Both the position numbers and the translations under genes were made by a program. 64,000 nucleotides of DNA from Sulfuritalea hydrogenivorans sk43H (GTDB lineage: Bacteria > Pseudomonadota > Gammaproteobacteria > Burkholderiales > Rhodocyclaceae): NCBI RefSeq assembly GCF_000828635.1, contig NZ_AP012547.1, positions 3,162,001 to 3,226,000 on the forward strand. Direction: 5' to 3'. The notes beneath the pieces are model-generated. The model did not search any database. It was given only the letters and a program-made list of their open reading frames with translations, and had not been told where the DNA came from. The first letter of the stretch is position 1. Each line of letters begins with the position of its first letter. This document shows, piece after piece, positions 1 through 63,072 of this stretch.

Positions 1-802
1 TGACCGCATTCAATTGCTGTCCGACTGCAGCTGACACCGGCAACGGTGCGCCAATCCGGGTTGCCTCTTCCATCAGCAACGCATAGTCCTTGTGGTGCAG
101 CCGCGCTTCGACGCCGGGTGCGAATTCGCGGCTTGCCATGCGCCCGCCGAACACGTCCAGCACGCGCGAGCCGGCCGAGCCGTGCAGCATCGCGGCACGC
201 ACCCTGGCGAAGTCGACGCCCGAAGCGGCTGCCAATCGTGCCGCTTCCGCCGCGGCCTCGATTGCCGCCACCATCACCATCTGGTTGCAGGCCTTGGCGA
301 CCTGGCCGGCGCCGGCTTCGCCCACCCGCACAACGGTCTTGCCCAGCACCTCGAAGAACGGCTGGAGGCGTGCCGCCAGCGCCGACTTTCCGCCCCACAT
401 GATGGCCAGCGAAGCGTTCTGCGCGCCGACACTGCCGCCGGAAACCGGGGCATCGACGAAATCAACGGCCTGCGCGGCATGCCTTGCCGCGATGCGGCGC
501 GCCGCCGACGGCGCGATGGTCGAGAAATCGACATGCAGGCTGCCCGGCGCAAAACCCTGTGCCAGGCCCTGCGGCCCGAAAGCCAGCCCCTCGACATCGG
601 CACTGCCGGTGACGTTGGTGAAAACCACTGTGCAGTGGCGCGCAAGCTCGGCCGGCGAGTCCCGCCACAGCGCGCCCTGCCCGATCAGCGCGGCGGCCGA
701 CTCCCGCCGCCGCGACCAGACCGACAACGCATGCCCCGCGCGCAACAAATGCTCCGCCATCGGGCGGCCCATGGCGCCAAGGCCGATGAAGCCCAGTTGC
801 AT
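1..802 (-). CDS. NAD(P)-dependent beta-hydroxyacid dehydrogenase, 3' end outside window
   Basis: About 267 N-terminal residues of a 3-hydroxyisobutyrate dehydrogenase / tartronate semialdehyde reductase family enzyme, which interconverts a 3-hydroxyacid and its semialdehyde with NAD(P). Read from the minus strand, it starts MQLGFIGLGAMGRPMAE, with the GxGxMG dinucleotide-binding turn. It continues with the family's DAPVSGG substrate loop and GQVAKACNQ, whose Lys is the expected catalytic residue. The gene runs off the window's left edge, so no stop codon is seen. The ATG at 802-800 lies 5 bases after the stop of the paralogous gene at 808-1683, so the two are surely co-transcribed. Substrate cannot be told from sequence. 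A weak copy of the dispersed repeat (366-389) is read in frame as KSALAARL. Confidence 0.85.
   Translation of the reverse strand, partial: MQLGFIGLGAMGRPMAEHLLRAGHALSVWSRRRESAAALIGQGALWRDSPAELARHCTVVFTNVTGSADVEGLAFGPQGLAQGFAPGSLHVDFSTIAPSAARRIAARHAAQAVDFVDAPVSGGSVGAQNASLAIMWGGKSALAARLQPFFEVLGKTVVRVGEAGAGQVAKACNQMVMVAAIEAAAEAARLAAASGVDFARVRAAMLHGSAGSRVLDVFGGRMASREFAPGVEARLHHKDYALLMEEATRIGAPLPVSAAVGQQLNAV
366..389 (-). repeat. Dispersed 24-bp repeat, weak copy in hydroxyacid dehydrogenase gene
   Basis: Matches 21 of 24 positions of the element whose core is GTCGGCGCTGGCGACACGG (perfect copy at 21981-22004). Orientation is with the gene. It is read in the second frame as KSALAARL, about residues 139-146. 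It could be native coding sequence that happens to resemble the element. Confidence 0.45.
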
Positions 803-807
803 GACGA

Positions 808-1683
808 CTAGTCCGGAGTGCTCATTTTCTCGAGCAGCTTCAACGCGGCAATCGAGTCGTCCTCGCCCATGCCGCTGCCGACCATCGCATTGAACATCTG
901 TGCGGTGGCCGCCGCCGAGGGCAGCATCAAGCCCAGGCGATGTGCCTCTCCCATCACGATGCGCAAGTCCTTCTGGTGCATCCAGGCCTTGAAGCCCGGC
1001 TTGAAATTCCGGTCGAGCATGCGCTGGCCGTGGTTTTCCAGGATCTTCGAGTAGGCAAAGCCGCCCAGCAGGGCCTCGCGTACCCGCGCCGGATCGACAC
1101 CGCTCTTCTGCGCGAAATTGAACGCCTCGGCCACCGCCATGACGCCGACCCCGGTAAGGATCTGGTTGCAGGCCTTGGCCACCTGTCCGGCGCCGCTGCC
1201 GCCGATCAGGGTCGCCGACTTGCCCATCTTGTCGAACAGCGGCTTGACCTTTTCGAACACCTCCGGCTTGCCGCCGACCATGATGGTCAGCGCCGCGTTG
1301 ATCGCGCCCGTTTCGCCGCCCGACACCGGGGCGTCGAGAAACTCGATGTCCCGCTCCGCCAGATGCAAGCCGATATGCCGCGCCGCATCGGGCGCGATGG
1401 TGCTCATGTCGACCACGATCAGACCCGGTGCCGCCCCTTCCGCCAGCCCCTGAGGGCCGAGGCAGACGGCCTCGACGTCGGGCGCATCGGCCACCATGAC
1501 GATGACCACTTCGGCGTGCCGCGCCACTTCGGCCGGATTGACATGGATCTTCGCATTGACGCCGGCAAAGGGAGCCAGCGCTTCCGGCCGGCGCGCCCAC
1601 AGATGCAGCGAATGCCCGGCCTTTTCCAGGTGCAGGGCCATCGGGCGGCCCATCAGGCCAAGGCCTATGAATCCTACTTTCAT
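808..1683 (-). CDS. NAD(P)-dependent beta-hydroxyacid dehydrogenase (GarR/3-HIBADH family)
   Basis: A complete 291-residue enzyme of the same family as its downstream neighbour; family members usually have 285-300 residues. The N-terminal Rossmann turn GLGLMG, the loop DAPVSGGETGA and the catalytic-Lys motif GQVAKACNQ are intact. The C-terminal all-helical dimer domain has the family's HQKDLRIVMGEA segment. Likely reactions are tartronate semialdehyde to glycerate, or 3-hydroxyisobutyrate to its semialdehyde; nothing nearby (no gcl, hyi or mmsA) decides between them. With the gene at 1-802 it forms a tandem paralogous pair, while a DUF4202 gene lies 39 bp upstream on the same strand. Confidence 0.88.
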   Translation of the reverse strand: MKVGFIGLGLMGRPMALHLEKAGHSLHLWARRPEALAPFAGVNAKIHVNPAEVARHAEVVIVMVADAPDVEAVCLGPQGLAEGAAPGLIVVDMSTIAPDAARHIGLHLAERDIEFLDAPVSGGETGAINAALTIMVGGKPEVFEKVKPLFDKMGKSATLIGGSGAGQVAKACNQILTGVGVMAVAEAFNFAQKSGVDPARVREALLGGFAYSKILENHGQRMLDRNFKPGFKAWMHQKDLRIVMGEAHRLGLMLPSAAATAQMFNAMVGSGMGEDDSIAALKLLEKMSTPD

Positions 1684-1722
1684 GATGTTTTCTCCTCGGG
1701 GGGGGTCATGTTTTGCTTCTTG

Positions 1723-2319
1723 TCAGGTGCCAATCGCCTTGAGAATCAGCGGCACCAGCGGCTCCGGCAGCGTGATGCCGCCGCTGGTGGCAAAGGCACG
1801 GGCGTGCTCCGACATTTTCCTCCAGGTCTTGCGAATGATGTCGAGCCATTTTTCCTCGCTGTACTCGGCATGCTGGCCGGCAAAGCCGAGCATGTAGTGT
1901 TCGATGAATACGAGGTCCGTGACATCTTCCAGCAGTTGCGTATCGGCATTGACCTTGAGGCCGCGCTTGCTCACCGCCGCCATGACCGGATCGATCATTG
2001 CCTCGTCGTAACCCGCCTGCCGCATCAAGGCGCCCGCCGTTTCGGCGTGAAACTTGTACAGCCCGGTGCGCCACGCGTAGTAGCCTTCTTTCGTCATCGG
2101 GTAGCTGTTGCGCGGCACGGTCCAGCGCCTGATGTGCTGTGCGCGGACGGCGAGCTTCACTACCTCGGACGCCTCGGGGGCGAAGCGTTGCAGCATGTCC
2201 GACATGCGCCTGGCGTAAAGCAGCTCCTTCGGCTGCCCCTGGTCCTGGTTGGGATCTTCGGCGTTGGCCGCGTCGAACAGCACGATGGCCCGTTCGAATC
2301 GCGCCTGAAGTTCACTCAT
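1723..2319 (-). CDS. DUF4202 family protein
   Basis: A 198-residue protein recognised as DUF4202, whose function is unknown. Family hallmarks are the N-terminal DAANAEDPN, ELLYARRMSDML, the histidine-rich RAQHIRRWTVPR, the YxxWR segment, and LEDVTDLVFIEHY. The conserved His/Asp residues recall HD-type metal sites, but this is only an impression. The ORF opens further upstream, but the ATG at 2319 is chosen because GAGAGGGAAG sits just before it and family conservation begins there. It lies 39 bp upstream of the hydroxyacid dehydrogenase gene and probably leads that operon. No signal peptide or membrane segment is seen. Confidence 0.8.
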   Translation of the reverse strand: MSELQARFERAIVLFDAANAEDPNQDQGQPKELLYARRMSDMLQRFAPEASEVVKLAVRAQHIRRWTVPRNSYPMTKEGYYAWRTGLYKFHAETAGALMRQAGYDEAMIDPVMAAVSKRGLKVNADTQLLEDVTDLVFIEHYMLGFAGQHAEYSEEKWLDIIRKTWRKMSEHARAFATSGGITLPEPLVPLILKAIGT

Positions 2320-2413
2320 GATCTCGCTTCCCTCTCCATTTGGAAAAAATCGGGCGCCGGCGCCGTGGAATCCCCGTCCCCTGCGACAAATCGAAGCCGG
2401 CATCTTAGCCGAG

Positions 2414-3710: not shown

Positions 3711-4949
3711 TCAGGAGCGGTAGTCGGCGTTGATCTTGACGTAGTCGTACGACAGATCGCAGGTCCAGACCGTGGCTTCGGCACTTCCCCGACCCAGGTC
3801 GACGCGCACGGTGATTTCGGCGGCCTGCATGATGCGCGCGCCGTCGTCCTCGCGGTAGCTGGCGGCACGGCCGCCGTTTTCCGACACCAGCACCTCTTCG
3901 CTGCCACTGCCCAGCCAGACACGCACGCCGGCCGCATCCAGATCCGCGATGCCGGCATAGCCGATGGCCGCCAGAATGCGGCCGAGATTCGGATCGGAAG
4001 CGAAAAAGGCCGTCTTCACCAGCGGCGAGTGGCCGATCGCATAGGCTACCTGGCGGCATTCCGCCGCCGTGCCGCCAGCGCCGACTTTCACGGTGATGAA
4101 CTTGGTCGCGCCCTCGCCGTCGCGCACGATGGCCTGGGCCAGCTCGGTCGCCACGCCGATCACGGCATCGCGCAGCGCCGGCCAGTGCGGGGATGATTCG
4201 TTGTCGATCATGCAGCCGGACACGCCGGTGGCGATGACCACGAAGGAATCGTTGGTCGAGGTGTCACCATCCACGGTGATGCAGTTGAAGGAGGCGTCGG
4301 CGGCATCCTTCGCCAGCTTCTGCAGCAGGGCCGGACTGAGCCCGGCATCGGTGGCGACGAAGCCGAGCATGGTCGCCATGTTGGGACGGATCATGCCGGC
4401 GCCCTTGCTGATGCCGGTGACGACAATGGAATAGTCGGCGCTGGCGACACGGCGGCTGGCGGCTTTCGCCACGGTATCCGTGGTCATGATGGCGTGGGCT
4501 GCGGCATGCCAGTGGTCGGCGGCGAGGTCGGCCCGCGCCGCCGGCAGGCCGGCGATCAGGCGTTCGACCGGCAGGTGTTCGAGGATCACGCCTGTCGAAA
4601 ACGGCAGCACTTCATCGGCCGCGCAGCCCAGCAGCTTCGCCACCGCGTCGCAGGTATCGCGCGCGGCGCGCATGCCCTGCTCGCCCGTGGCGGCATTGGC
4701 GATGCCGGTATTGATCACCAGCGCGCGGATGCTGCTGTCGCCGGCCAGATGCTCACGACACAAGGTGACCGGCGCCGCGCAGCAGCGATTCTGGGTAAAC
4801 ACGCCGGCGGCGCGGCTGCCGGGCGCGAACTCGATCAGCGTCAGATCGCGCCGGTTCTTCTTGCGGATGCCCGCCTCGGCCGTGCCGAGACGAACGCCGG
4901 CAACGGGGAACAGGGCTTCAGGGGCGGGGGTGGCGTAATTGACGGGCAT
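3711..4949 (-). CDS. argJ: Bifunctional ornithine acetyltransferase / N-acetylglutamate synthase
   Basis: A 412-residue ArgJ. It moves the acetyl group from N-acetylornithine to glutamate in the cyclic arginine pathway and may also use acetyl-CoA. The proenzyme cleaves itself before a Thr; here the site [16 protein letters not shown] puts the nucleophile at about Thr193. Other family blocks are [23 protein letters not shown] and [13 protein letters not shown]. An ATG at 4949 is preferred to a TTG five codons upstream, because family proteins begin about here. Two copies of the dispersed 24-bp repeat lie within the gene, read as RRVASADY (166-173, alpha chain) and KVGAGGTA (288-295, beta chain). 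It stands alone rather than next to secA. Confidence 0.95.
4065..4088 (-). repeat. Dispersed 24-bp repeat in argJ (copy 1)
   Basis: 23 of 24 positions match the element, in the sense orientation of argJ and read as KVGAGGTA in the beta chain, where family proteins (from memory) have a variable VRVEGG-like stretch. Confidence 0.85.
4431..4454 (+). repeat. Dispersed 24-bp repeat in argJ (copy 2)
   Basis: 23 of 24 positions match. It is antisense to argJ, so it is read through the other strand as RRVASADY, about 20 residues before the autocleavage site. It lies 343 bp from copy 1 and in the opposite orientation. Confidence 0.85.
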
Positions 4950-5017: not shown

Positions 5018-5041
5018 GGAGTCGGCGCTGGCGCCATGGCG
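5018..5041 (+). repeat. Dispersed 24-bp repeat, degenerate intergenic copy
   Basis: 20 of 24 positions match. The first half, GTCGGCGCTGGCG, is intact and the match continues beyond the right end into GATT, as in better copies. Confidence 0.6.
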
Positions 5042-5273: not shown

Positions 5274-5297
5274 CACCGTCCCGCCAGCGCCGACCCT
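5274..5297 (-). repeat. Dispersed 24-bp repeat, degenerate intergenic copy
   Basis: 19 of 24 positions match. It lies 9 bp beyond the toxin gene's stop codon. It shares the CCGTCCCGCCAGCGCCGAC variant seen in murE at 59000-59023. Confidence 0.5.
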
Positions 5298-8912: not shown

Positions 8913-11900
8913 TTGCGCGCACTGCTCTGGGCGGCAACGCTGGGCTACTTCGCCTTTGCCTTGCTGCTGCTGGCCTTGCGCTACGCGATCCTGCCGCAGA
9001 TCGAAAGCTACCGCGGCGATGTCGAGCAGATGATCAGCACGGCGATCAATCGCCCGGTCGGCATCCGGCGGATCGAGGCGCATTGGGCCGGACTGCGCCC
9101 GGCGCTGCATCTGGAAGGCTTCGAGATTCGCGACACCCGGGGACAGGCCGCGCTGGGTTTCGATCAGGTCGAAGCCGAGCTGGCCTGGAGTTCGCTGTGG
9201 CGATTCCAGCTGCGCCTGGCACGGCTGGAACTCGATTCGCCGACCCTGCTGCTGCGCCGCGACGGCAAGGGCCGCTTCTTCGCCGCCGGACTCGAAATCA
9301 CGCCGCAGCCGAACGATCAGGATGACTTTGCCGACTGGCTGCTGGCGCAGGATCGCGTCGTCATCCGCAACGCGAGCATTGCCTGGCAGGACGAGTTGCG
9401 CAACGCACCGCTGCTGGAGTTGAAGCACCTGAACTTCCAGCTCGACAACAGCGGCAGCCGCCATCGCTTCGGTTTCACCGCGGAACCGCCGCGCCAGCTG
9501 GCGGCACGGATCGACATCCGCGGCGATTTCAAGGGGCCCGACCTGGATCAGCTGGAGGCCTGGAAAGGCGATGTCTATGCCGAACTGGACTACGCCGATC
9601 TCGCCGGCTGGCGCAGCTGGGTCGATTATCCCGTGTCATTGCCGCAAGGCAGCGGCGCCCTGAGGCTGTGGCTGGGGTTTGCCCGCAAGGAACTGGTTTC
9701 CGCCACGGCGGACGTGCGTCTGGCCGACGTCCGCCTGCAACTGCGCCCCGACCTGCCCGAGCTGAACCTCCTCCAACTCGAAGGGCGGCTGGCGGGACGA
9801 CGCCTCGACGGCGGCTTTGAAGCCGAACTCAAACATCTGACACTGGCAACCCGCGACGGCCTCACGCTGCAACCGACGGACCTGAAGCTTGCCTGGCAGG
9901 ACGCCGCCGCCAACCGTCCGCCGCAAGGCGCGGCCAGCGCCAACGGTCTCGACCTGGCCGCGCTGGCGCGGCTTGCCGCCTACCTGCCGCTGGATGACGC
10001 CAACCGCGCCCGCCTGGTTCGTCATGCGCCACGCGGCCGCGTCTTTGACCTCAAACTCGACTGGAAGGGCAGCTTCGACACCGCCGGGAACGCCGGAAGG
10101 TCAGGCAAATGGAGCATCAAGAGCCGCTTCGAAGGGCTCGGCCTGACGGCCCTGGGTCCCGTCCCGGGCATTTCCGGCGTGAGCGGCCGCATCGAAGGCA
10201 GCGAAAAAGGGGGCAGCGTGCGGCTCGATGGCCAGCGCGCATCGTTCGAACTGCCCACCGTGTTCCCCGAGCCCAGACTGGAACTGGAAGCCTTCTCCGC
10301 CGATCTCGACTGGCAATCCGTCGCCGACGGCTTTCAGGTCCTGCTGAACAAGGCGGCATTCCACAACAAGGACGCGGCGGGCGAAGCCAGCGGCAACTGG
10401 CGCGCCCTGGGCGAAGGGCCCGGCGCGATCGAACTCGATGCCCGGCTCACGCGCGGCAGCGGCGACGCGGTCTGGCGCTACATGCCGCTTGCCGTCGGCA
10501 AGGACGTGCGCGACTGGCTGCGCGTCGCCATCATCGGCGGCAAGGCCAGCGACACCACCCTCAAGCTGCGCGGCGACTTGCGCCAGTTCCCCTTCCGCGA
10601 CGGCAAGGGCGGCCTGTTCGAGGTGCGCGGCAAGTTCCGCGACGCCAGCTTGCGCTACGCCGGCAGCTGGCCCGAGATCAACGGCATCGAGGGGGACCTG
10701 CTGTTCAGCGGGCAGCGCATGCTGATCACCGGCAAGAGCGGCAAGATCTTCGGCGTCGGCCTGCGCGAGGTACGCGCCGAAATTGCCGACCTCGAACAGA
10801 TGGAAGAACTGCTCACGGTGACCGGCAAGGCGCTCGGACCGACGGCGGACTTCCTGCGCTTCATCGAAGCCAGCCCGGTCGGCGAGCGCATCGATCATTT
10901 CACCGAGGACATGAAGGCGGAGGGCAACGGCGAACTCGACCTCAGGCTCGACCTGCCCTTGCGCCGGCTGGGGAATTCGAAAGTGGATGGCAGCTATCGT
11001 TTCGATGGCAACCGCCTGACCGTGGACAACGATTTGCCGCCCCTGGCCGAGGTGCGCGGCGCCTTGCGCTTTACGGCGGACCATCTCGAAGCACGGGGAA
11101 TTCGCGGCACCCTGCTCGGCACGCCGCTGGGCGTCGACGTGAAAACCACGGGCGATGGCGGCGTTCAGGTCAACGCCGCCGGCGAGGTCAATATGGCTAC
11201 GTTGCGGCGCCAGTTCCCGCAAGCCGTATTCGATCACCTGTCGGGCAGCACGAAATGGACGGGCAGCGTGCGGGTGAAGAAAAAGTCCGCGGAAGTGAAG
11301 CTGGGCTCGAATCTGGTCGGCCTGTCGTCGAGCCTGCCCGAGCCTTTCAACAAGTCCGCCACGGATACCCTGGCTTTCAGCTTCGAACGCAAGCCGCCGC
11401 CGGATGCCGCAACACGCACCGCCACGAAAGTCGGCGCTCGCGACACGGCGACGAAACCGGCGGTTGCACAGGACATGCTCGACCTCAGCCTCGGTCGCGC
11501 GCTTCGGATGCAGCTGGTGCGTCGACACGATGCCAGCCCGCCGGCCATCACGCGCGGCGTGCTGGCGATCGGCGATGTCAGTGCCGCCATGCCGGAACGC
11601 AGCGTGATGATCGCGGCCAACCTGCCGCGCATCAATGCCGATTTCTGGCGCGGCATCCTGGCCGGCGCGCGTGGCGGCAACGGTCAAACCGAATCGGCGC
11701 TGCCGCTCCTGCCTGCAGTCCAGTTCGACTTGCGCACCCCCGACCTGACCGTGCAGGACAAGAGCTTCCACGACGTGCGCGTGAGCGGCAGCCGTCCCGA
11801 AGGATCAAGCAGCACCCGCTTTGAACTGAAGAGCCGCGAACTGGCCGGCAACTTCGAATGGAACAGCATCGGCAACGGCAAGCTGTCGGGGCGCATTGCC

Positions 11901-17638: not shown

Positions 17639-20600
17639 TTATGTAACCGGCTATCCCACATTTTCTGCAGCCGCTTCACCGAGACCGGCGACGAGGTTTT
17701 CAGTTCCTGTGCGAATAATGCCACGCGCAGTTCTTCCAGCAGCCAGCGGAACTCGTCGAGGAAGGCATCGCCCTGCTGGCCGGATTTCAGCATCGCATTG
17801 CGCTCGCGCTCCCAGGGGCGGCCCAAGCCCTGCCAGTCTGCCATCAGGCGGGCGTCGCGCGCCGGGTCGCTGCGCGCCTTTTCCAGCCTCAGGCTGATGG
17901 CCTTGAGGTAGCGCGGATAGTGCTGCAGGCGCTCGAAGGGCGTGGTGGCGATAAATCGCTTGGGCATCAGTTCGGCAAGTTGCGCGCCGATGTCGGCGCA
18001 GGCCTGCGGGAAAGCCTTCTGCATCGCGGCGAGCTTCTTCGCCAGCACGGCATGCTCGGTCAGGATCGTCCCGATCAGGCGCAGGATCTCCTGCGCCACC
18101 AGCAGGATGCGGCCGCGCGCCGCCTCGCGCCGTGCCGTGAACGCCGACTCTTCGGTCGGCAGCGGGTCCATCAGGCAGGTGCGTTCCAGCGTCACGGCGA
18201 CCAGTTGCTCGCGCAGCTCCTTCTCGGTGCCGAGTGCGATGAATTGCAGCGCGGTCTCGCGCAGGCCCGGCAGTTTTTCGACGGCCTTGACCTGTGCTGC
18301 GAGCTGCAGCGCGAACAGCCGCGCCATGCCGCGCCGATGTTCGGCGCGGGCCTTGTCCTCGGTATCGAAGGCGGTGAGCCGAACGCTCTCGCCCAGATCG
18401 ACCAGCGCCGGGAAACCCACCGTAGTGCCAGCGCCGACTTTCACTTCCATGAGCTCGGGCAGCGTGCCGAAGGTCCAGGCGGTGACGCCGGACAACTCTC
18501 CCGCCGCGGCCTCGTGCTTCACTTCGGCAGCGGCATAGACCTGCTCGACGCGGTCGCGGTACTCGGCACGCAGTTCAGCGAGATTGCGCGAGATCGCCAG
18601 CGTGCCGCCATGCTCGTCGGTGAGACGGAAGTTCATGAACAGGTGCGGCCGCAATTCGCCCGTGCGGAAGGCGTCGAGCGGCAGCTTCATGGCCAGATGC
18701 TCCTCGGCGGCGCGCGTCAGGGCGCGCACCAGCGGCTCGTCGAGGTCATGTTCGGTTTCGCAGAAATCAGTGGCGAACTCGTCGAGCGGCTGCAGACGAT
18801 GGCGATACTTCTGCTGCAGCGTCTTCAGCAGGGCGAGGATCTTTTCCTTGAGCAGCCCCGGCACCAGCCATTCACAGCGATTGGCCGGCAGCTGGTTGAG
18901 CGCCGGCAGCGGCAGCATCAAGGTGACGCCGTCATCGGCCGCACCCGGGTCGTGGTGGTAGCTCAGCTTGAAGCTCTGGCCGCGATGGATCAATGCGGGA
19001 GGAAAGGCGTCGGTGGTGATGCCCGCCGCCTCGTGCCGCATCAGCTGCTCCTTTTCCAGGCAGAGCAGCTTCGGATTGGCCGCCTCGGCCTCGCGCCGCC
19101 AGTGGTCGAAGGCCGCCAGGGTGATGATGCCCTCGGGAATCCGGCTATCGTAGAAGGCATAAATCAGCTCGTCGTCGACCAGCACGTCGGGCCGCCGCGA
19201 CTTGTGTTCCAGCGCCTGGATCTCCTTCATCAGCTTGGCGTTGTGCTGGAAGAAGCGCCACTTGCGCACCCAGTCCTCGCCGACCTGGCCTTCGACCAGC
19301 GCCTCGCGGATCAGGATTTCGCGCGCGAGCCTGGGGTCGCTCGGACCGTAGTGCACGCGGCGCTTGGCATGGATCATCAAGCCGTGCAGCGTGACGCGCT
19401 CCCAGGCCACGACCTGTCCCGGCCCCTTCTCCCAGTGCGGCTCATAGACATGCTTGCGGATCAGGTGGCCGCCGACCTGCTCCAGCCACTCCGGCTCGAT
19501 CTTCGCGATGCAACGCGCGAACAACCGCGAGGTCTCGACCAGTTCGGCAGCGACGATCCAGCGTCCGGCCTTCTTCACCAGCGCCGAACCGGGATGGATG
19601 TAGAAGCGGATGCCGCGCGCGCCGAGGTAGTTTTTGTCCTCCTCGCTGACGAGGCCGATGTGGCCGAGCAGGCCGGTCAGCAGGGCCTTGTGGATGGACT
19701 CGTAGCCGGCCGGGATCTGGTTCTCCTTCCAGCCATGCTCGTGGCACAGGGTCATCAGTTGGCCATGCACGTCGCGCCACTCGCGCAGGCGCAACCAATT
19801 GATGAAGTTCTGCCGGCACCACTGGCGCTGCTTGTTCGAGGTCTCGTGCTTCCAGATTTCGTCGCCGGCGGCCCAGAGCTTGAGATAGGAGAGAAACTCG
19901 GATTTCTCGTCCTTCCACTTGGCATGGGCCTGGTCGGCCGCCGCCGCATGCTCCTGCGGCCGGTCGCGCGGGTCCTGGGTGCCCAGCGCGGCGGCGATGA
20001 TCAACACTTCGCGCAGACAGTTGTGCTCGCGCGCGGCGAGAATCATGCGGCCGATCTTCGGGTCCAGCGGCAGCTTGGCCAGCTCGAAGCCGACCTGGGT
20101 CAGCTCTTTCGTTGTCTCGTCGATCGCGCCGAGTTCGGCGAGCAACTGGTAGCCGTCGGCGATCATGCGCGGCAGCGGCGCTTCGAGGAAGGGGAAGTCC
20201 TCGACATCGCCCAGATGCAGCGATTTCATGCGCAGGATCACACCGGCCAGGCTGGAGCGCAGGATTTCGGGCTCGGTGTAGGCCGGGCGCTGGTTGAAAT
20301 CATCTTCGTCGTAAAGCTTGAAACAGACGCCCGCCGAAACGCGGCCGCAACGCCCGGCGCGCTGGCTGGCCGCCGCGCGCGAGATCGGTTCGACCTGCAA
20401 TTGCTCGACCTTGTTGCGATGCGAATAGCGCTTGACGCGCGCCAGCCCCGAATCGATCACGTAGCGGATACCGGGTACGGTCAGCGAGGTCTCGGCAACG
20501 TTGGTCGCCAGCACCACGCGCTGCCCCTGATGCGAAGCGAAAACGCGACCCTGCTCGACGGCGGTCTGGCGCGCGAACAGGGGCAGCACTTCCAGCCCTG

Positions 20601-21821: not shown

Positions 21822-23612
21822 ATGGCCGACAACGACAAACCCTCCATCCGCGTGGATACCGTACCCGACGCAAGCGCACGGGTACATAACTTCATTCGCC
21901 ACATCATCGACGCCGACCTCAAGAACGGCAAGTACGCCGCGCGCCATTGGAGTGGCCGGCCAGGCCCCGCCGCGCAACAGAAAGTCGGCGCTGGCGACAC
22001 GGCGAAAATCCGCACCCGCTTCCCGCCGGAGCCCAACGGCTACCTGCACTTCGGCCACGCCAAGTCGATCTGCCTGAATTTCGGCCTGGCGCTGGACTAC
22101 GCGGGCGCTTGTCACTTGCGCTTCGACGACACCAATCCGGAGAAGGAAGAACAGGAGTATGTCGATTCCATCATCGACGCCGTGCACTGGCTGGGCTTCG
22201 ACTGGAAGGGAAATCAATATTTCGCCTCCGACTACTTCCAGTGGATGTACGACTTCGCCGAGAAGCTGATCGAAGCCGGCCATGCCTACGTCGATTCGCA
22301 GACGGCGGAGGAAATGCGCGCCAGCCGCGGCACGCTGACCGAGGCGGGGAAGAACTCGCCCTACCGCGACCGCACGCCCTCGGAGAACCTCGATCTGTTC
22401 CGCCGCATGAAGGCCGGCGAATTCGCCGACGGCGCGCACATCCTGCGCGCCAAGGTGGACATGAGTTCTGGCAACATCAACCTGCGCGACCCGGCGATCT
22501 ACCGCATCCGCCACGCCACGCACCACGCCACCGGCGATGCCTGGTGCATCTACCCGATGTACACCTACGCCCATCCGATCGAGGATGCACTGGAAAACAT
22601 CACCCATTCGATCTGCACCCTGGAGTTCGAGGACCAGCGCCCCTTCTACGACTGGCTGCTGGCACGACTGGCCGAGCTGGGCTGCGTCAATACGCCGCTA
22701 CCGCAGCAGATCGAATTCGCCCGGCTCAACCTTTCCTACGTCGTGCTCTCCAAGCGCAAGCTGATCCAGCTGGTCGACGAGAGGCACGTCGATGGCTGGG
22801 ATGACCCGCGCCTGCCGACCCTGGTCGGTGCGCGCCGTCGGGGCTTCACGCCCGAAGCCTTCCGCCGCTTCAACGAAATGAACGGGGTCACCAAGTCCGA
22901 TTCGTGGATCGACATCAGCGTGCTCGAAGAATGCCAGCGCGAGCACCTGAACGAAACCGCACCGCGCCGCATCGCCGTGCTCGATCCGGTCAAGCTGGTC
23001 ATCGACAACTACCCCGAGGGGCAGGAGGAAGAATGCCTCGCGCCCAACCACCCGCAAAAGCCCGAATGGGGCAAGCGCCCCGTCCCGTTTTCGAAGGAAC
23101 TCTGGATCGAGCGCGAGGACTTCATGGAAGTGCCCGGCAAGGGTTACTTCCGGTTGTTTCCCGGCAACATGGTGCGCCTGCGCTATGGCTTCGTCGTCAA
23201 GTGCACCGGCTGCGACAAGGATGCCGATGGCAAGATCACGGCGGTGCGCTGCGAGTACATGGCCGACTCCAAGTCCGGCACACCGGGTTCCGACAATTAC
23301 AAGGTCAAGGGCAACATCCACTGGGTCTCGGCGCGGCACGCGTATGCCGCCGAGGTGCGCCTGTACGACCGCCTGTTCGCCGTCGAAGCGCCCGGCGAGG
23401 GCGGGCGCGATTTCATTGCCGACCTCAACCCTGATTCAAAACTCGTGATCACCGCGCAACTCGAAGCAGCGCTGAAAAGCGCCGCCGCCGAGGAGCGCTT
23501 CCAGTTCGAACGCCACGGCTATTTCGTCGCCGACCGCTTCGACTCCAGGCCCGGCACGCCGGTATTCAATCGCGCGGTGACGCTGAAGGATTCGTGGTCC
23601 AAGGGCAAGTAG
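21822..23612 (+). CDS. glnS: Glutaminyl-tRNA synthetase
   Basis: A 596-residue class I synthetase that charges tRNA-Gln (E. coli 554). The HIGH-type motif is YLHFGHAKS (HFGH at 76-79) after RFPPEPNG, and the KMSKS-type motif is VVLSKRKL. The C-terminal anticodon-binding beta-barrels are complete (EDFMEVPGKGYFRLFPGNMV, VKGNIHWVSA). About 20 extra residues lie between LKNGKY and TRFPPEPNG, where family proteins have only a few. This insert contains KVGAGDTA (54-61), encoded by the only perfect copy of the dispersed repeat. ATG at 21822 gives the family's usual N-terminus. Transcribed alone. Confidence 0.96.
   Translation: MADNDKPSIRVDTVPDASARVHNFIRHIIDADLKNGKYAARHWSGRPGPAAQQKVGAGDTAKIRTRFPPEPNGYLHFGHAKSICLNFGLALDYAGACHLRFDDTNPEKEEQEYVDSIIDAVHWLGFDWKGNQYFASDYFQWMYDFAEKLIEAGHAYVDSQTAEEMRASRGTLTEAGKNSPYRDRTPSENLDLFRRMKAGEFADGAHILRAKVDMSSGNINLRDPAIYRIRHATHHATGDAWCIYPMYTYAHPIEDALENITHSICTLEFEDQRPFYDWLLARLAELGCVNTPLPQQIEFARLNLSYVVLSKRKLIQLVDERHVDGWDDPRLPTLVGARRRGFTPEAFRRFNEMNGVTKSDSWIDISVLEECQREHLNETAPRRIAVLDPVKLVIDNYPEGQEEECLAPNHPQKPEWGKRPVPFSKELWIEREDFMEVPGKGYFRLFPGNMVRLRYGFVVKCTGCDKDADGKITAVRCEYMADSKSGTPGSDNYKVKGNIHWVSARHAYAAEVRLYDRLFAVEAPGEGGRDFIADLNPDSKLVITAQLEAALKSAAAEERFQFERHGYFVADRFDSRPGTPVFNRAVTLKDSWSKGK
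21981..22004 (+). repeat. Dispersed 24-bp repeat in glnS (reference copy)
   Basis: Taken as reference because it agrees with the majority base at every position: AAA, the core GTCGGCGCTGGCGACACGG, then CG. Read as KVGAGDTA inside an apparent insertion before the catalytic domain. The inner part GTCGGCGCTGGCGAC is an imperfect palindrome. Confidence 0.9.
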
Positions 23613-23653
23613 GCGCGGTTACTACCCTCACTATTACCCCCACCAAGAGGTAA

Positions 23654-25647: not shown

Positions 25648-25657
25648 GATCCGATCC

Positions 25658-27436: not shown

Positions 27437-27561
27437 GCCTCGCCTCTCAAGACAGGCAATAATTCTACCCCGCCACTTGCCCTTGGCATGAAACGCTTGG
27501 CGCACATCGCCGGAAAGCGCAGAATTGCGCTTCGCCTGTCCACTCACTGAAGGAGTTCCCC

Positions 27562-28062: not shown

Positions 28063-28066
28063 GCGG

Positions 28067-36411: not shown

Positions 36412-36454
36412 GCAGCTTGCCGTCGATCGCCGGCGACGCCGGGCGCCCGACAAT

Positions 36455-36478
36455 CGCCGTATCGCCAGCGCCGACTTT
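36455..36478 (-). repeat. Dispersed 24-bp repeat at the end of the aldolase-dehydrogenase gene
   Basis: 23 of 24 positions match. Its left part is intergenic; its end coincides with the last base of the aldolase-dehydrogenase stop codon. Followed by ATTGT, as in the murE copy, so the conserved unit may be about 29 bp. Confidence 0.85.
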
Positions 36479-50055: not shown

Positions 50056-51436
50056 CCGTCAGCTTCCCCGGCACGCCGCCGATGGAACCGGCGCCCATGG
50101 TGATCACCACGTCGCCGTCGCGAACGGCCGCGAGGATGGCCGCCGGCATCGCCGCGATGTCTTCGACGAATACCGGCTCGACCTTGCCGGCGACGCGCAT
50201 TGCGCGCACCAACGCACGGGCGTCGGCGGCGACGATCGGCGCCTCGCCGGCGGCATACACCTCGCCCAGCAGCAGGGCATCGACGCCATTCAACACCTTG
50301 ACGAAATCCTCGAAGCAGTCCCGCGTCCGCGTGTAGCGATGCGGCTGGAAGGCCAGCACCAGCCGGCGGCCGGGGAAGGCGCCGCGCGCCGCCGCCAGCG
50401 TTGCCGCCATCTCGACCGGATGATGGCCGTAGTCGTCGACCAGCGTGAAATGCCCACCGCCCGGACACGGGACCTCGCCGTGACGCTGGAAGCGCCGGCC
50501 GACGCCGCGAAAATCGGCCAGCGCCTTGATGATCGCCGTGTCGCCAACGCCGACTTCCGTGGCCACCGCGATGGCCGCCAGCGCGTTCAGCACATTGTGG
50601 CGTCCCGGCAGGTTGAGCACGATCGGCAAACGGCTGACATTGCCGTTGGTGCGCACGCAGGTGAAGCGCATGGTGCCGCCGTCGGCCACGATGTTCTCGG
50701 CGCGGAAATTCACCTCGCTGTCGATGCCGTAGGTGACGATCTGCTTGGCCACGCGCGGCATGATCTCGCGCACGTTGGCATCATCGCCGCAGACCACGGC
50801 AACGCCATAGAACGGCAGGCGATGCAGGAAGTCTACAAAGGCCTGCTTCAGCCGGCCGAAATCGTGGCCGTAGGTTTCCATGTGGTCGGCGTCGATGTTG
50901 GTGACCACCGAAACCACGGGGGACAGGAAGAGGAAAGAGGCATCCGATTCATCGGCCTCGGCCACCAGGAATTCGCCGCTGCCGAGCTTGGCGTTCGCTC
51001 CCGCCGAATTCAGCCGGCCGCCGATGACGAAGGTCGGATCGAGGCCGCCCTCGGCCAGGCAACTGGCGACGAGGCTGGTAGTCGTTGTCTTGCCGTGGGT
51101 TCCGGCAATCGCGATGCCCTGCTTGATGCGCATCAGCTCCGCCAGCATCTGCGCCCGCGGCACCACCGGCACCTGGCGCTCGCGCGCCATGAGCACTTCC
51201 GGATTGTCCTCGCGCACGGCGGTCGACACCACCACCGCATCCGCCGTCGTGGCGTTCTGCGCGCTGTGGCCGATGGCGATGCGGATGCCTTGTGCCGCGA
51301 GGCGCCGCGTCGTCGCGCTTTCGGCGAGGTCGGAGCCGCTGACCTCGAAGCCCTGGTTGGCCAGCACCTCGGCGATGCCCGACATGCCCGAACCACCGAT
51401 GCCGACAAAGTGAATGCGTTTGACCTTGTGTTTCAT
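50048..51436 (-). CDS. murC: UDP-N-acetylmuramate--L-alanine ligase
   Basis: 462 residues. It adds L-Ala to UDP-MurNAc. The N-terminal [17 protein letters not shown] binds the nucleotide sugar, the ATP loop is [14 protein letters not shown], and [14 protein letters not shown] and DDYGHHPVE follow. The C-terminal domain contains a 22/24 repeat copy read as EVGVGDTA (294-301). This replaces residues that look similar in relatives without changing length. ATG at 51436 gives the canonical start; the ORF opens 38 codons upstream in the murG spacer. It is 25 bp downstream of murG. Confidence 0.97.
50534..50557 (-). repeat. Dispersed 24-bp repeat in murC
   Basis: 22 of 24 positions match, sense orientation, read as EVGVGDTA and followed by ATCATC. 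The protein segment fits the family without an insertion. Confidence 0.75.
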
Positions 51437-51461: not shown

Positions 51462-52517
51462 TCATTTCGCCACCTCCTGGCAAATTCTCGCCACCTCTGC
51501 CGTCGCCTCCGGCCGCGCCAGTGCGCGCGCCTTTTCGGCCATTTGTGCAAGCTGGCTGCGTGACAAATTCCTGATCTCGGCCAAGCGCGCCGGCGTCAGC
51601 TCGCTTTGCGGCAGCAGAATCGCCGCCCCCGCATTGCTCAGGAAACGCGCGTTCGCCGTCTGGTGGTCATCCACCGCATGCGGGAAGGGCACCAGCAAAC
51701 TGGCCACACCAGCGGCTGCGAGTTCCGCCACGGTCAATGCGCCGGCGCGGCAGATCACCAGGTCGGCCCAGTCGTAGGCGCCGGCCATGTCGTTGATGAA
51801 GGCCACGCAATCGGCGTTGACGTCGGCCGAGATATAGCGGCTCTTCAGCATCGGCAGATGCTTCTCGCCGGCCTGATGCACCACCGCCGGCCGCTCGCTT
51901 TCCGGAATCAGCGCCAGCGCTTTCGGCAGCGCCTCGTTCAAGGCCTGCGCGCCGAGGCTGCCACCCACCACCAGCACGCGCAGCGGACCGTCGTGCTGCG
52001 CATAGCGAAGAGTCGGCGCCGGCAGCACGGCGATTTCCGGGCGCACCGGATTGCCCACCCACTCGCCGTTCTTCAGCGCATCGGGGAAGCCGGTGACGAT
52101 GCGATCGGCGACACCCGCCAGCACCTTGTTGGCCAGGCCGGCCACCGAATTCTGTTCGTGCAGCACCAGCGGAATGCCCTGCAGGGACGCCATCATGCCG
52201 CCCGGGAAACTGATGTAGCCGCCCATGCCCAGCACCACGTCGGGCTGGATGCGCTTGAGCTGTTTCCATGCCCCGATGAAACCACGCAGCAGGTTGAAGG
52301 GCAGCAGGAGCTTCCGCAGCAGGCCCTTGCCGCGCAGCGCGGAGAAATGCACCCAGGCCATTTCGTAACCGCGGCCGACGGTCAGCTTCGCTTCCATGCC
52401 ATCCGGATGGCCCATCCAGGCGATCTTCCAGCCTTGTGCCTTCAAGTACTCAGCCACGGCCAGCCCCGGCATGATGTGCCCGCCCGTGCCGCCGGCCATG
52501 ACGAGGAGGGTTTTCAT
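51462..52517 (-). CDS. murG: Lipid II synthase MurG (GlcNAc transferase)
   Basis: A 351-residue GT-B glycosyltransferase on the inner face of the membrane. It adds GlcNAc to lipid I to make lipid [22 protein letters not shown] (glycine-rich loop 1), [28 protein letters not shown] and [16 protein letters not shown] are typical. The donor-site [22 protein letters not shown] block is intact. A long palindromic repeat separates it from ftsW upstream. Confidence 0.97.
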
Positions 52518-52530
52518 GGGAAAAGGCTTT

Positions 52531-52625
52531 CACCGCAGAGACGCAGAGGCGCAGAGAAAATCAGGAACGAGAAGGAGCAATTGCCTTTCTCTGCGTTGCC
52601 TCTGCGCCTCTGCGCCTCTGCGGTG
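52531..52625. repeat. GCAGAGGCGCAGAG-type palindromic repeat between ftsW and murG
   Basis: Arms at 52531-52556 and 52600-52625 are inverted repeats matching at 25 of 26 positions, with a 43-bp centre. They begin CACCGCAGAG and end CTCTGCGGTG. In mRNA this would be a very stable hairpin. A sister copy lies at 61271-61371. The centre contains CTCTGCGTTGCC in both. No transposase is associated. Confidence 0.9.
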
Positions 52626-52635
52626 AGATTGAATT

Positions 52636-53799: not shown

Positions 53800-55193
53800 G
53801 CGACGTGCTCCAGTGCATGGACGGCGGCAACGAAGACCTGCGCCCGATGTTCGTAGTTGCGGAACATGTCGAAGCTGGCGCAGGCCGGCGACAGCAGCAC
53901 GGCGTCGCCCGGTTGCGCTTGGCGCTGGGCGCGGCGCACGGCGTCGTCCATGTCGTTTGCGGTTTCGATCGCCACGCCGGCGCCGGCGATGGCCTTTTCG
54001 ATCAGCGGTCCGTCGCGCCCGATCAGCACCGCGGCGCGCGCATGCCTCGCCACGGCTTTGCCGAGTGGAGAAAAATCCTGCCCCTTGCCGTCGCCGCCGA
54101 GAATCACCACGACCTTGCGCCCCAATCCGCCGAGGCCGTTCAACGCCGCTACCGTGGCGCCGACATTGGTACCTTTGGAATCGTCGTACCAGCTCACGCC
54201 ATCGATCTCGGCAATCTTTTCGACGCGATGTGGCAGGCCGCGGAAGCCACGCAAAGCCGGCAGCAAGGCGTTGGCATCGAAACCGAGGCTGGTGCACAAG
54301 GCTAGGGCCGCCATCGCATTGGCCGCATTGTGCAAGCCGGCCAGCGGCAGTTCGGAGACCGGCAACAGGAAGCGCTCGCCCTGCACGATCCAGGGTTCGC
54401 CCCGATTCGGACGCAAGCCGAAATCCTCGTCCGCCGCGGGGGCGTCAAGGCCGAAAGTGATGATGTGGCGATCGGCCAGCGCCATCCGGCGCACCCTTAC
54501 GTCGGCACGGTTCAGCACCTGCACGCCCGGTGCGCCCTCGGCGCTCTGGAAGATCCGCGCCTTGGCCGAGGCGTACTCGTCGAGATCGATGTAGCGATCG
54601 AGATGATCGTCGGAAATGTTCAGCACCGTCGCCGCAAGCGGGTTGAGTGTCGCCGTGGTCTCCAGCTGGAAGCTGGACAGCTCGAGCACCCAGATCTGCG
54701 GCAGGGCGTTTGCATCCTGCGCATCCATCAGGGCCGTCAGTGCCGCCGGGGAAATGTTGCCGGCGACGCCGACGCTCTTGCCCGTGGCGCGCAGCAGGTG
54801 CCCGGTCAGCGCGGTGGTGGTGGTCTTGCCGTTGGTGCCGGTAATTGCCAGCACCGGCACGTTCTGTCCGAGGTCGCGCAAGCCCAGGGCGAACAATTCG
54901 ATTTCGCCGACCACGGGAATGCCGGCAGCGCGGGCGTGGATCACCACCATCAGGCCGCCCGACAGCCCCGGCGAAAGGACAAGCAGGTCGACACCTTCGA
55001 GCAGCGCCTTGTCGAACTCGCCGCTGCGAAAGTCGGCGCTGGAGACACGGCGATTCAGCTCGTCCAGATACGGCGGCGCCGTGCGCGTGTCCGCCACCCG
55101 CACCCGCGCCCCCTGCCGCGCGCACCAGCGCGCGGAGGCCAGCCCCGATTCGCCGAGACCGAGGATGAGGACGTGTTTGCCTTGCAGGTTCAT
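53796..55193 (-). CDS. murD: UDP-N-acetylmuramoylalanine--D-glutamate ligase
   Basis: 465 residues. It adds D-Glu to UDP-MurNAc-L-Ala. The N-terminus is [19 protein letters not shown], the ATP loop [29 protein letters not shown] follows, and the C-terminal [15 protein letters not shown] is intact. Residues 48-55 read RRVSSADF from a 23/24 repeat copy lying antisense to the gene, in a variable loop of the N-terminal domain. ATG at 55193 overlaps the mraY stop (ATGA). Confidence 0.97.
55029..55052 (+). repeat. Dispersed 24-bp repeat in murD
   Basis: 23 of 24 positions match. Antisense to the gene, so it is translated from the other strand as RRVSSADF, nearly the same peptide as the antisense copy in argJ. 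Confidence 0.85.
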
Positions 55194-57722: not shown

Positions 57723-59218
57723 GATTGCCGCGCCCCTCGCCGTGTCGGACTCTGTCTGCCGGGGATTCGGCTTCGCCGGCCGGCAAGCGCCGACTTTGCT
57801 GCGTCGATGTCGGAGAAGGCATGGCGCACGCCGCCGATCTCCTGATAGGGCTCGTGCCCCTTGCCCGCCAGCAGGATCACGTCGCGGTCGTCTGCATCCG
57901 CGATGGCTTCGTCAATGGCTACTCCGCGGTCGGCCTCGATCAGCGGCCGCCGGTTCATTCCGGCGAGAACGCCGTTGAAGATGACTTGCGGGTCTTCGCC
58001 GCGCGGGTTGTCGCTGGTAAGCACCACGCGATCGGCCAGCCGCTCGGCGATCGCGCCCATCTGCGGCCGCTTGCCGGGATCGCGATCGCCGCCGCAGCCG
58101 AACACGCAGACCAGTTTGCCGTTACGCGCGGCAGCGGTTTCGCGCAACACGCCAAGCGCCTTTTCCAGTGCGTCCGGCGTGTGGGCATAGTCCACCACGA
58201 CCAGCGGCTCGCCACTGCCGCCCAGCGCCTGCATGCGCCCCGGCGGCGGCTGGATCCCTTGCAGCACGGCGGCGATAGCCTCCAGCCGCTCCCCGCGCGC
58301 CAGCAGCGCGCCGATCACCGCAAGCAGGTTGGAGGCATTGAAGCGGCCCACCACGGGCGCGGCGAAGTGCACGCCGCGCAGATCGAATTCGATGCCGGCA
58401 GCGCCCATGGCGAGGTTTTCCGCGCGCAACAGGTCGTCGCCGACGCAGGCCGGATCGAGCGTGTAAGCGATCAGGTGAAGGCGACCGCGCAGCCTGGCCG
58501 CGAGTTCCGCGCCGAAGGCGTCGTCGAGATTCACCACGGCCGCCGCGAGGCCGGGGGCGAAGAACAGCCTCTCCTTGGCTGCCGCGTAGGTCGCCATGCT
58601 GCCGTGATATTCCAGATGGTCGCGCGTCAGGTTGGTGAACACCGCGACATCGAAGGCCGCGCCATGGACCCGGCCCTGATCGAGGCCGATCGACGAGACT
58701 TCCATCGCACAGGCCTCCGCGCCCCGCGCAAGAAATCCGGCCAGCGCGGCATGCAGGGTGATGGCATCCGGCGTGGTGTTGGGGCTTTCGTCGAGTGCGT
58801 CGAGGAAGCCGTTGCCCAGCGTGCCGATCACCGCGCAGCGATGCCGCAGGGCATTCAGCGCCTGTGCGATCCACTGCGATACCGAGGTCTTGCCGTTGGT
58901 GCCGGTAACACCGGCCAGCCAGAGATGTTCGGAAGGGCGGCCGTAGACAAGATGCGCGATCTCGCCGGAGAGCGCCGCAAGCCCCGGCACTTCAACAATC
59001 GCCGTCCCGCCAGCGCCGACTTTTTGAGCCTCCGGAACGCCCGCCTCCGCGATCACCGCGACGGCGCCCCGCGCCACCGCCTGCGCGATGAAGTCGCGGC
59101 CGTCGGCCTGCGCGCCGGGGAAGGCGACGAAGACGTCGCCCGGCTGCACACGGCGCGAGTCGGCGGTAAGGCGCTGCGCAACAACGCCCTTTCGTTCGAG
59201 CTGTTCGAGGATCGTCAT
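57719..59218 (-). CDS. murE: UDP-MurNAc-L-Ala-D-Glu--meso-DAP ligase
   Basis: 499 residues. The ATP loop is GVTGTNGKTSVSQW. The SDNPRGEDPQ motif is the DNPR signature for meso-diaminopimelate, so the wall is DAP-type. Two repeat copies are in frame: KVGAGGTA (66-73, N-terminal domain) and KSALAGRR (about 475-482) in a C-terminal tail rich in Arg, Gly and Pro that looks longer than usual. ATG at 59218 is used; a GTG at 59227 that overlaps the ftsI stop as GTGA is an equal candidate and would add three residues. Confidence 0.96.
   Translation of the reverse strand: MTILEQLERKGVVAQRLTADSRRVQPGDVFVAFPGAQADGRDFIAQAVARGAVAVIAEAGVPEAQKVGAGGTAIVEVPGLAALSGEIAHLVYGRPSEHLWLAGVTGTNGKTSVSQWIAQALNALRHRCAVIGTLGNGFLDALDESPNTTPDAITLHAALAGFLARGAEACAMEVSSIGLDQGRVHGAAFDVAVFTNLTRDHLEYHGSMATYAAAKERLFFAPGLAAAVVNLDDAFGAELAARLRGRLHLIAYTLDPACVGDDLLRAENLAMGAAGIEFDLRGVHFAAPVVGRFNASNLLAVIGALLARGERLEAIAAVLQGIQPPPGRMQALGGSGEPLVVVDYAHTPDALEKALGVLRETAAARNGKLVCVFGCGGDRDPGKRPQMGAIAERLADRVVLTSDNPRGEDPQVIFNGVLAGMNRRPLIEADRGVAIDEAIADADDRDVILLAGKGHEPYQEIGGVRHAFSDIDAAKSALAGRRSRIPGRQSPTRRGARQS
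57774..57797 (-). repeat. Dispersed 24-bp repeat near 3' end of murE, weak copy
   Basis: 19 of 24 positions match. Sense orientation, second frame, read as KSALAGRR. It begins the extra C-terminal tail. Confidence 0.4.
59000..59023 (-). repeat. Dispersed 24-bp repeat in murE
   Basis: 22 of 24 positions match, sense orientation, read as KVGAGGTA and followed by ATTGTTG. The surroundings (VPEAQ before, IVEVPGLAAL after) suggest the element fills a surface loop. Confidence 0.8.
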
Positions 59219-61270: not shown

Positions 61271-61371
61271 ACCGCAGAGGCGCAGAGGCGCGGAGAAGGC
61301 GCGGAGGAGTTCAGAAGAAGCAAGGGAAAGGTGTTCTCTGCGTTGCCTCCGCGCCTCTGCGCCTCTGCGGT
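61271..61371. repeat. GCAGAGGCGCAGAG-type palindromic repeat between rsmH and ftsL
   Basis: Arms at 61271-61295 and 61347-61371 are perfect 25-bp inverted repeats with a 51-bp centre. They are clearly related to the repeat at 52531-52625: both begin ACCGCAGAG, both hold CTCTGCGTTGCC before the right arm, and both end CTGCGGTGAG. Confidence 0.9.
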
Positions 61372-62321: not shown

Positions 62322-62764
62322 AACGCAAGATTTTCCAGGCCCGGCGGCAGGAGCTTGTCGCCCACGGCAAAGATTGCGTCCTGCTGCGCCTTCCAGCCCT
62401 CGGCCGACCAGATTTCGAAATGGCGCCCCTGCCCGATCAGCCAGATTTCCTTTTCCAGCCCGGCGTACTGGCGCAGTGACGGCGAAATCAGCAGGCGCCC
62501 GGCGCCATCCAGTTCCACGTCCTCGGCAAAGCCCACCAGCAGACGCCGCACCATGGCGGATTCCACTTGCAAGCTGGGCGCCGCCAGGATCTGGGCGCGA
62601 ATGGGCTCCCACGCGGACTGCGGGTAGAGCAGCAGGCAGCGATGCGGGTGGGCGGTGACCACCAGCCGGCCTTCACCAGCCGCCACCAGGGCGTCGCGGT
62701 GCCGCGCCGGAACAGCCATCCGGCCCTTGGCATCGAGATTGAGCGCCGTCGCACCTTGAAACAT
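62318..62764 (-). CDS. mraZ: Transcriptional regulator MraZ
   Basis: 148 residues with two tandem AbrB-like halves: [23 protein letters not shown] style N-terminus, then [21 protein letters not shown]. MraZ rings bind direct TGGG repeats upstream of their own gene and repress the dcw cluster. Three such repeats are present in front of it (62807-62836). It is the first gene of the cluster. Confidence 0.97.
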
Positions 62765-62806
62765 CGGACCCCCTTGAACAGGAAATCAGTCGCCAAGCAA
62801 CCAAAA

Positions 62807-62836
62807 TTTCCCACTAACCCCCACAGAGTCCCACTT
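62807..62836 (-). promoter_or_regulatory. MraZ operator: three TGGG direct repeats
   Basis: On the minus strand AGTGGGACTC, TGTGGGGGTT and AGTGGGAAAT follow one another at a 10-bp period, the form of known MraZ boxes. They abut the -10 hexamer (62833-62838), so bound MraZ would cover the transcription start. Confidence 0.88.
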
Positions 62837-62861
62837 TATGACACTTTTTGACGAGGGTCAA
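62833..62861 (-). promoter_or_regulatory. Promoter of the dcw cluster (mraZ promoter)
   Basis: TTGACC (62861-62856), 17 bp, TAAAGT (62838-62833) on the minus strand. It is the strongest promoter match in the window and lies directly before the MraZ boxes. Confidence 0.75.
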
Positions 62862-63072
62862 GAAAGAGTCGCATTTTTTTCAAGCGCAACAAGGGCTTAG
62901 GCGCGAAAGCCGAGGATTTTCGCAAATAAAATATTAAATAAAATCAATAGGGATACAAAGCAAACCGAATGTGCTTTGTGAGGAGTTGCGAAGTACGCCA
63001 TCGCAGATCGAGCAGCCGAGCCAAAAGTCGGCGCCGGCGACACGGCGACGATGGCCGGTGGAAGCCAGCTCC
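62862..63072. other. Intergenic region upstream of the dcw promoter
   Basis: About 210 bp between the end of psd and the dcw promoter, no gene. From 62925 to 62965 lies a strikingly AT-rich block (AATAAAATATTAAATAAAAT), rare in this DNA, about 65-100 bp upstream of the -35. It might be a nucleoid-protein site; it is too far for a plain UP element. A T-run lies at 62874-62880. The dispersed repeat occurs at 63024-63047. Confidence 0.5.
63024..63047 (+). repeat. Dispersed 24-bp repeat downstream of psd
   Basis: 23 of 24 positions match, in non-coding DNA 26 bp past the psd stop codon. Its palindromic core could form a small stem at the 3' end of the psd mRNA. Confidence 0.85.

Follow-up and report, generated by a model that had tools for sequence, protein, structure and literature searches.

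A repeated word of about 26 bp in Sulfuritalea and its relatives, a possible self-recognition tag for DNA uptake

The window analyzed here, a stretch of 64,000 nucleotides of Sulfuritalea hydrogenivorans sk43H (positions 3162001 to 3226000 of G000, its single-contig genome of 3,802,648 bases), raises the question of why one 24-bp sequence recurs in murC, murD, murE, and other genes, as well as between genes. Several relatives of Sulfuritalea carry hundreds of copies of this word in lineage-specific spelling, and, judged from sequence, it looks like a self-recognition tag for DNA uptake. The word is abundant, evenly divided between the strands, used in all reading frames, kept at its sites by substitution, shifted in dialect between genomes, and scarce in low-GC DNA. 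As to its function, we lean, with considerable reservation, toward a genome-wide DNA-uptake-type word of ~26 bp that would be read by a minor pilin of the type IV pilus.

Abundance in the genome and in the window

The word was defined in four ways, as a 24-mer with up to 3 mismatches, a 22-base core, an exact 19-mer, and the pattern AAAGTC-N12-ACGGCR. The reversed word or core and, for the window, dinucleotide shuffles (n = 100) served as controls. In the 3.80-Mb genome, the 24-mer is found in 494 copies, 252 forward and 242 reverse, whereas the reversed control gives 0 and 0. The genome-wide count thus exceeds the null, the first of the points on which the preliminary description of this DNA had let its case depend. 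For the exact 19-mer, the two strands have 37 and 35 copies, and for the core, at up to 3 mismatches, 331 and 327.

In the window, all ten strong copies reported in that description are present, with 0 to 2 mismatches to the 24-mer, and its seven weak copies (366, 5018, 5274, 18128, 18418, 38559, and 57774) have 2 to 5 mismatches to the core. One more copy, at 52011, had been overlooked (3 core mismatches), and the matches at 38726 (6 core mismatches) and 60887 (5) are probably due to chance. Its rejection of chance for the set as a whole holds: 11 matches at up to 3 mismatches (the ten strong copies and 366) compare with 0 in the 100 shuffles. Core matches with 0 to 5 mismatches number 2, 7, 2, 3, 3, and 2, with 1 more at 6; matches to the reversed core number 1 at 5 mismatches and 3 at 6. 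The host genes are argJ (two copies), yhdP, glnS, mtnA, murC, murD, and murE, as previously assigned. The glnS copy lies within an N-terminal extension, immediately ahead of the conserved domain, and the copies at 36455 and 63024 are outside every called gene. The copies are as follows.

366..389, minus strand, word with 3 mismatches to the 24-mer
4065..4088, minus strand, word with 1 mismatch, in argJ
4431..4454, plus strand, word with 1 mismatch to the 24-mer and exact core, antisense in argJ
5020..5041, plus strand, word core with 2 mismatches, outside called genes
5274..5295, minus strand, word core with 4 mismatches, outside called genes
11427..11450, plus strand, word with 1 mismatch, in yhdP
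18128..18149, minus strand, degenerate core with 4 mismatches, in hrpA
18418..18439, minus strand, degenerate core with 4 mismatches, in hrpA
21981..22004, plus strand, exact 24-mer, in the N-terminal extension of glnS
36455..36478, minus strand, word with 1 mismatch, outside called genes
38559..38580, minus strand, word core with 3 mismatches, in mtnA
39121..39144, minus strand, word with 2 mismatches, in mtnA
50534..50557, minus strand, word with 2 mismatches, in murC, at the same place in relatives
52011..52032, plus strand, word core with 3 mismatches, antisense in a gene taken as murG from its place and its two glycosyltransferase-28 domains
55029..55052, plus strand, word with 1 mismatch, antisense in murD, retained in relatives
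57774..57795, minus strand, decayed word with 5 mismatches at the murE end, better preserved in L001, L004, and L006 to L009 (1 to 3 mismatches)
59000..59023, minus strand, word with 2 mismatches, in murE, retained in relatives
63024..63047, plus strand, word with 1 mismatch, outside called genes

The copy-free gap described between 22.0 and 36.4 kb is real: positions 22005 to 36454 (14 kb), which according to the preliminary description include a low-GC defense cassette, contain no word. Two other kinds of repeat were seen, inverted repeats of the CCGCAGAGGCGCAGAGGCG type at window positions 52530 to 52626 and 61271 to 61371 and, in the genome sample described below, a second repeat family with ACCCCGGATAG, ATAGCTACAAT, and CCCTCTCTCAC, each in 15 to 16 copies per 464 kb.

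Anatomy of the word and use of reading frames

A 464-kb sample of the genome (the window and 20 stretches of 20 kb each; called coding share, 86%) yields 82 core copies at up to 4 mismatches and 9 at 5, against 1 and 6 for the reversed core. The logo of the 82 copies, which were selected for likeness to the core, gives a ~26-bp consensus, RARAGTCGGCGCTGGCG-RN-ACGGCGA, with flat flanks. Core positions 2 to 8 are 98 to 100% conserved. At positions 15 and 16, no base exceeds 52%, the former being mostly R and the latter mostly Y.

Called genes hold 59 of these copies and the spaces between genes 23. The coding copies are spread over the three sense frames as 28, 6, and 1 and over the three antisense frames as 13, 8, and 3. 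The claim that the word is translated in three frames needs correction: all six occur, although their use is very uneven. Positions 15 and 16 are the most variable when sense, antisense, and intergenic copies are pooled; position 20 also differs in the class antisense 1 (3 copies), and position 21 often does in main-frame sense copies. Only 1 of 177 third-codon positions within core positions 1 to 9 differs, in copies that were chosen by core similarity. Since all frames are used and conservation is independent of codon position, the constraint is on DNA and not on codons.

These data bear on another explanation, that a frequent peptide or biased codon use produced the word as a side effect. 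The frame encoding a VGAGDTA-type peptide is indeed the commonest (28 of 59), and synonymous permutation, which keeps the peptide, retains some 12 of the 59 copies (mean, 12.3; maximum, 20). However, shuffling of codon order leaves a mean of 0.29 and a maximum of 2, and the reversed control gives 0 (both nulls: 387 called genes of the sample, core at up to 4 mismatches, 100 runs each). Together with the six frames and the 23 intergenic copies, the shuffles lead us to reject such an artifact, which we regard as extremely improbable.

Counted in 5-kb bins, the lowest-GC tenth (10 bins) has 0.10 copies per bin and the upper half (46 bins) has 1.30; the variance-to-mean ratio of copies per bin is 0.88. 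Orientation relative to replication, a check proposed in the preliminary description, shows no clear bias: by local GC skew, 37 of the 82 sampled copies are on the leading strand. With 252 and 242 copies on the two strands of the genome, a replication-oriented word was rejected.

Orthologous sites in relatives

The nearest relatives, by named MraY matches, are Sulfuritalea and metagenome-assembled genomes of Rhodocyclales (L001 to L009; 92 to 98% identity); NCBI taxonomy places Sulfuritalea in Sterolibacteriaceae. Five mur-cluster sites were aligned with nine word-bearing relatives (L001, L002, L004 to L009, and L012), giving 40 alignable site-genome pairs. At 36 of the 40 there is no indel, the exceptions being 55031 in L004 and L012 and 57774 in L005 and L012. 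The core is within 5 mismatches at 36 pairs as well, a different set. Letters at orthologous sites change through substitution, and the dialect letters shift together. Identity in these relatives is 0.877 in the core compared to 0.806 and 0.754 in the flanks. In L003, by contrast, the word is absent from these sites, and core identity is 0.570 compared to 0.812 and 0.744; this genome has 36 copies at up to 3 mismatches. Its four aligned mur sites are free of indels and so bear no signature of insertion.

The preliminary description also held that the same residues in orthologues from distant lineages would speak against the repeat. At alignable sites, the word is absent from L003, L014, L018, and L026, but at the murC site (50534) word-poor L042 differs from the core by only 3 mismatches and word-poor L011 by only 5. 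The word at this site may have grown from a similar preexisting sequence.

The same alignments bear on the possibility of a short mobile element, inserted in frame and represented by decayed copies, as likened earlier to Rickettsia palindromic elements. Those elements are longer insertions, present many times and in frame within protein genes. The word shares with them its many copies in frame in protein genes, and an element of this kind would account for its presence on both strands and in coding and intergenic DNA. Unlike them, it evolves by substitution, mostly without indels. Its mismatches are concentrated at two fixed positions, dialect letters change jointly at orthologous sites, and the logo is flat beyond ~26 bp. 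An insertion element is rejected for the sites examined, where 36 of 40 pairs lack an indel, and we consider it very improbable overall. Because the word arises by substitution, the earlier observation that copies in genes are always in frame is trivial.

Distribution and dialects

Among 297 family genomes, 46 contain the pattern AAAGTC-N12-ACGGCR at least 40 times, and these belong to 9 of 68 genera (g1, g8, g10, g19, g23, g38, g45, g46, and g64); reversed pattern controls are in single digits. The core exceeds 30 copies in 24 of 199 family genomes, and genus g14 has 61 core copies, none of the AAAGTC-N12-ACGGCR form. In other families of the order, 385 of 386 genomes are near background (at most 6), the exception being G402 with 17; outside the family, the reversed control reaches 16 in one genome, G518.

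One dialect switch is that between G000, where the ratio of AGTCGGCGCTGG to AGTTGGCGCTGG is 58:0 (464 kb), and G199, where it is 1:29 (320 kb). G199 is the genome of L001, and each of the four mur copies in L001 has T instead of C at core position 4. Candidate dialects are AAAAGTCGGtGCTGGCGagACGGCG in G008 (15 copies), AAAAGTCGACGcTGG.GA.ACGgC in G045 (10 copies), AAAgTCGGCGCTGGCGGgACGGCA in G213 (17 copies) and similarly in G080 (11), AAAgTCGGCGCcGGCG.cACGGcG in G046 (10 copies; control, 1), AAAGTCAGTCcc.gCgg.ACGGCG in G010 (20 copies), and AAAGTCAGcgcCgGC..gACGGCG in G023 (8 copies). Each consensus comprises sampled copies within 5 mismatches of a hand-set seed, chosen after counts of enriched words, and several are based on just 8 to 11 copies. 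The lead in G010 was AAAGTCAGTCC, found 8 times in 80 kb against 0.01 expected. No word with these ends is seen in 80-kb samples of G005, G060, G067, and G018, a size that a rare word could escape; other 11-mers surfaced in them, such as a periodic one in G067. The low pattern count of G267 does not reflect loss of the word: in the ComEA search G267 and G199 have the same coordinates, and G199 uses the AGTT dialect. In G250, G319, G155, G272, G285, and G084, the word may have been lost or may have another dialect.

Small groups of words are also found elsewhere. In G083, from a word-poor genus, 5 of 7 copies lie within 41 kb on one strand (C1:1461265-1502243; L402 to L404). Genes nearby encode a multicopper oxidase, a P-type ATPase, and an HlyD-type protein; this DNA may have been received from a word-bearing lineage. 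The groups in word-poor G056, G055 (C50), G129, and G402 are possibly imported DNA or mixed assemblies. An IMG/VR contig listed as viral (L290:629-2239), which came from a scan yielding at least 120 stretches with the word, has five copies, four of them at the 316-bp period of a tandem repeat.

Candidate readers and the weighing of functions

The length of the word, its conservation at the DNA level, its use of all frames, the persistence of its sites, the rewriting of its dialect, and its scarcity in low-GC DNA make it look like an uptake word. The earlier suggestion of a long DNA-uptake-like word fits the equal strands, the six frames, the orthologous persistence, the genome-wide dialect change, and the low-GC depletion. 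Under this reading, a minor pilin of the type IV pilus would bind free DNA bearing the word, the pilus would retract, and one DNA strand would enter via ComEC. Homologous recombination would spread alleles carrying the word, and uptake bias plus recombination would build and repair it wherever the protein or spacer permits. Copies would follow a drifting receptor, which would create dialects, and sites would decay once specificity is lost, as may have happened in L003.

G000 encodes ComEC (TIGR00361; E value, 2.7e-113) and a pilus cluster with a ComP_DUS pilin, a GspH/FimT pilin, PilV, PilW, and PilY1. The minor pilin scores above the cutoff of the Pfam ComP_DUS family (43.9 bits versus 27.3); it and the adjoining FimT-like pilin, at 3023878 to 3024857, are the candidate receptors. 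Sequence matches of the ComP-family pilin in the Protein Data Bank are general pilins, none of the 27 being named ComP. For the FimT-like pilin, the best NCBIfam model, far below its cutoff, is NF007800 (PRK10506), which we take to stand for PpdA.

A number of observations weigh against an uptake word. None of these genes marks the word: ComEC is found in 52 of 54 rows, the two without it (G206 and G215) being word bearing; GspH/FimT is found in 49 of 54, and four of its five misses (G046, G045, G010, and G205) are word bearing; a ComP-like pilin is found in 52 of 53, the miss being G045. (These rows include three pairs that apparently represent one genome twice, G117/G207, G006/G214, and G003/G222.) Many ComP-like matches are limited to the N-terminal pilin helix, and word-poor G216 and G062 encode pilins closely related to that of G000. 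ComP_DUS occurs in 273 of the 297 genomes of the family, some of them word poor. None is found in word-bearing G045, G138, and G227, which may have another reader or an assembly gap, and G294 and G309 are absent among the matches listed. No TIGR00426 match to ComEA, the periplasmic DNA receptor, is seen in G000 at an E value of 0.001, which a divergent ComEA may escape. ComEA is over the cutoff in 8 of 59 rows; these are 2 of the 39 word-bearing rows, 6 of the 14 that belong to word-poor genera, and none of the 6 with low counts. Most subthreshold matches, in open frames of at least ~800 codons, are, from their length, probably the Tex protein. The missing ComEA weighs against the standard competence pathway, and our confidence has been set accordingly.

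On the side of the word itself, scarcity in low-GC DNA is partly expected because the word is GC rich, and the strand split in the 464-kb sample (51 minus, 31 plus) is unlike that of the whole genome. Only 4 neighboring pairs closer than 300 bp occur among the 82 copies, 3 of them inverted and none under 125 bp. The core excess in identity (0.877) is modest, given a mean of 0.833 for all 22-bp windows, and only one of the five mur sites, 50534, is in the top 5% (top 4.4%); that at 57774 is below average because the copy in G000 has decayed. The density, ~1 copy per 6 kb in G000, is below the numbers of DNA uptake sequences (DUS) given in the relevant passages of PMC3630211.

An alternative, which we consider rather unlikely, is that the word serves not uptake but as a genome-wide address read inside the cell by a DNA-binding protein, such as a nucleoid organizer or a protein of recombination, repair, replication, or segregation. 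Selection at each site would keep the word, and the dialect would change with the protein. The sequence facts are identical under both readings, and most are explained equally well. The missing ComEA favors the address, as do the failure of competence genes to track the word and the same site positions across species. Chi-type and FtsK-guiding words are oriented by strand or replichore, unlike this one, which has neither a genome-wide strand excess nor a clear replichore orientation in the sample. Further points against an address are that the word is only imperfectly palindromic, that low-GC DNA holds few copies, and that a shift of dialect at many sites without loss of position would be hard to obtain without spread driven by transfer. 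A more specific version seems a shade more doubtful still: the word would be a new type of address and not an uptake tag, bipartite with steady ends and an exchangeable middle, in bearers where ComEA is mostly not found. Within that same doubtful version, the address would have been rewritten at hundreds of sites upon a change of its intracellular reader.

Comparison with known uptake words

According to the pertinent passages of a 2025 paper (PMC12616744), only Neisseriaceae and Pasteurellaceae are known to favor their own DNA at uptake via enriched words. Searches of the open-license literature, judged from the result listings, turned up neither this word nor any uptake word of Rhodocyclales. 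If the word is a true uptake tag, it would belong to a third family, with an architecture unlike that of the other two. Such a family, in which gain and loss are patchy and about seven candidate dialects exist besides the present one, would permit testing of receptor-word coevolution in environmental bacteria. For the buildup of uptake words in general, mutation and uptake bias have been argued to suffice (Bakkali, PMC1939737, in the portion that addresses this).

The DUS of Neisseriaceae, whose receptor is ComP, resemble the word in their many copies and their lineage dialects; the word lies on both strands, in genes and spacers, and G000 encodes a ComP-family minor pilin. As portions of PMC3630211 describe, the dialects of DUS follow phylogeny, and an obvious word is missing from some Neisseriaceae, as it is from some members of the present family. 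DUS are 10 to 12 nucleotides (nt) long with a CTG core (the core as given in sections of PMC12616744), whereas the word spans ~26 bp, has no CTG core at a fixed place, and differs in its middle by genus. Its two ends, AAAGTC and ACGGC, change least, although in G199 even AAAGTC is altered. It also differs from DUS in its lower density, in the lack of frequent inverted pairs serving as terminators, and in that ComEA was not found in G000. The 3' end resembles the Neisseria DUS, but over too short a stretch to imply homology, and this likeness was discounted.

The uptake signal sequence (USS) of Pasteurellaceae is described in parts of PMC12616744 as a long discontinuous motif that reaches 32 nt and has lineage-specific types, a predicted receptor ComN/PpdA, and a 9-nt core with GCGG followed by AT-rich parts downstream. 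The word shares with it the long discontinuous motif and the lineage types. It differs in that the logo shows neither a core AAGTGCGGT or ACAAGCGGT nor AT-rich downstream parts, and in that two relaxed positions lie inside the word.

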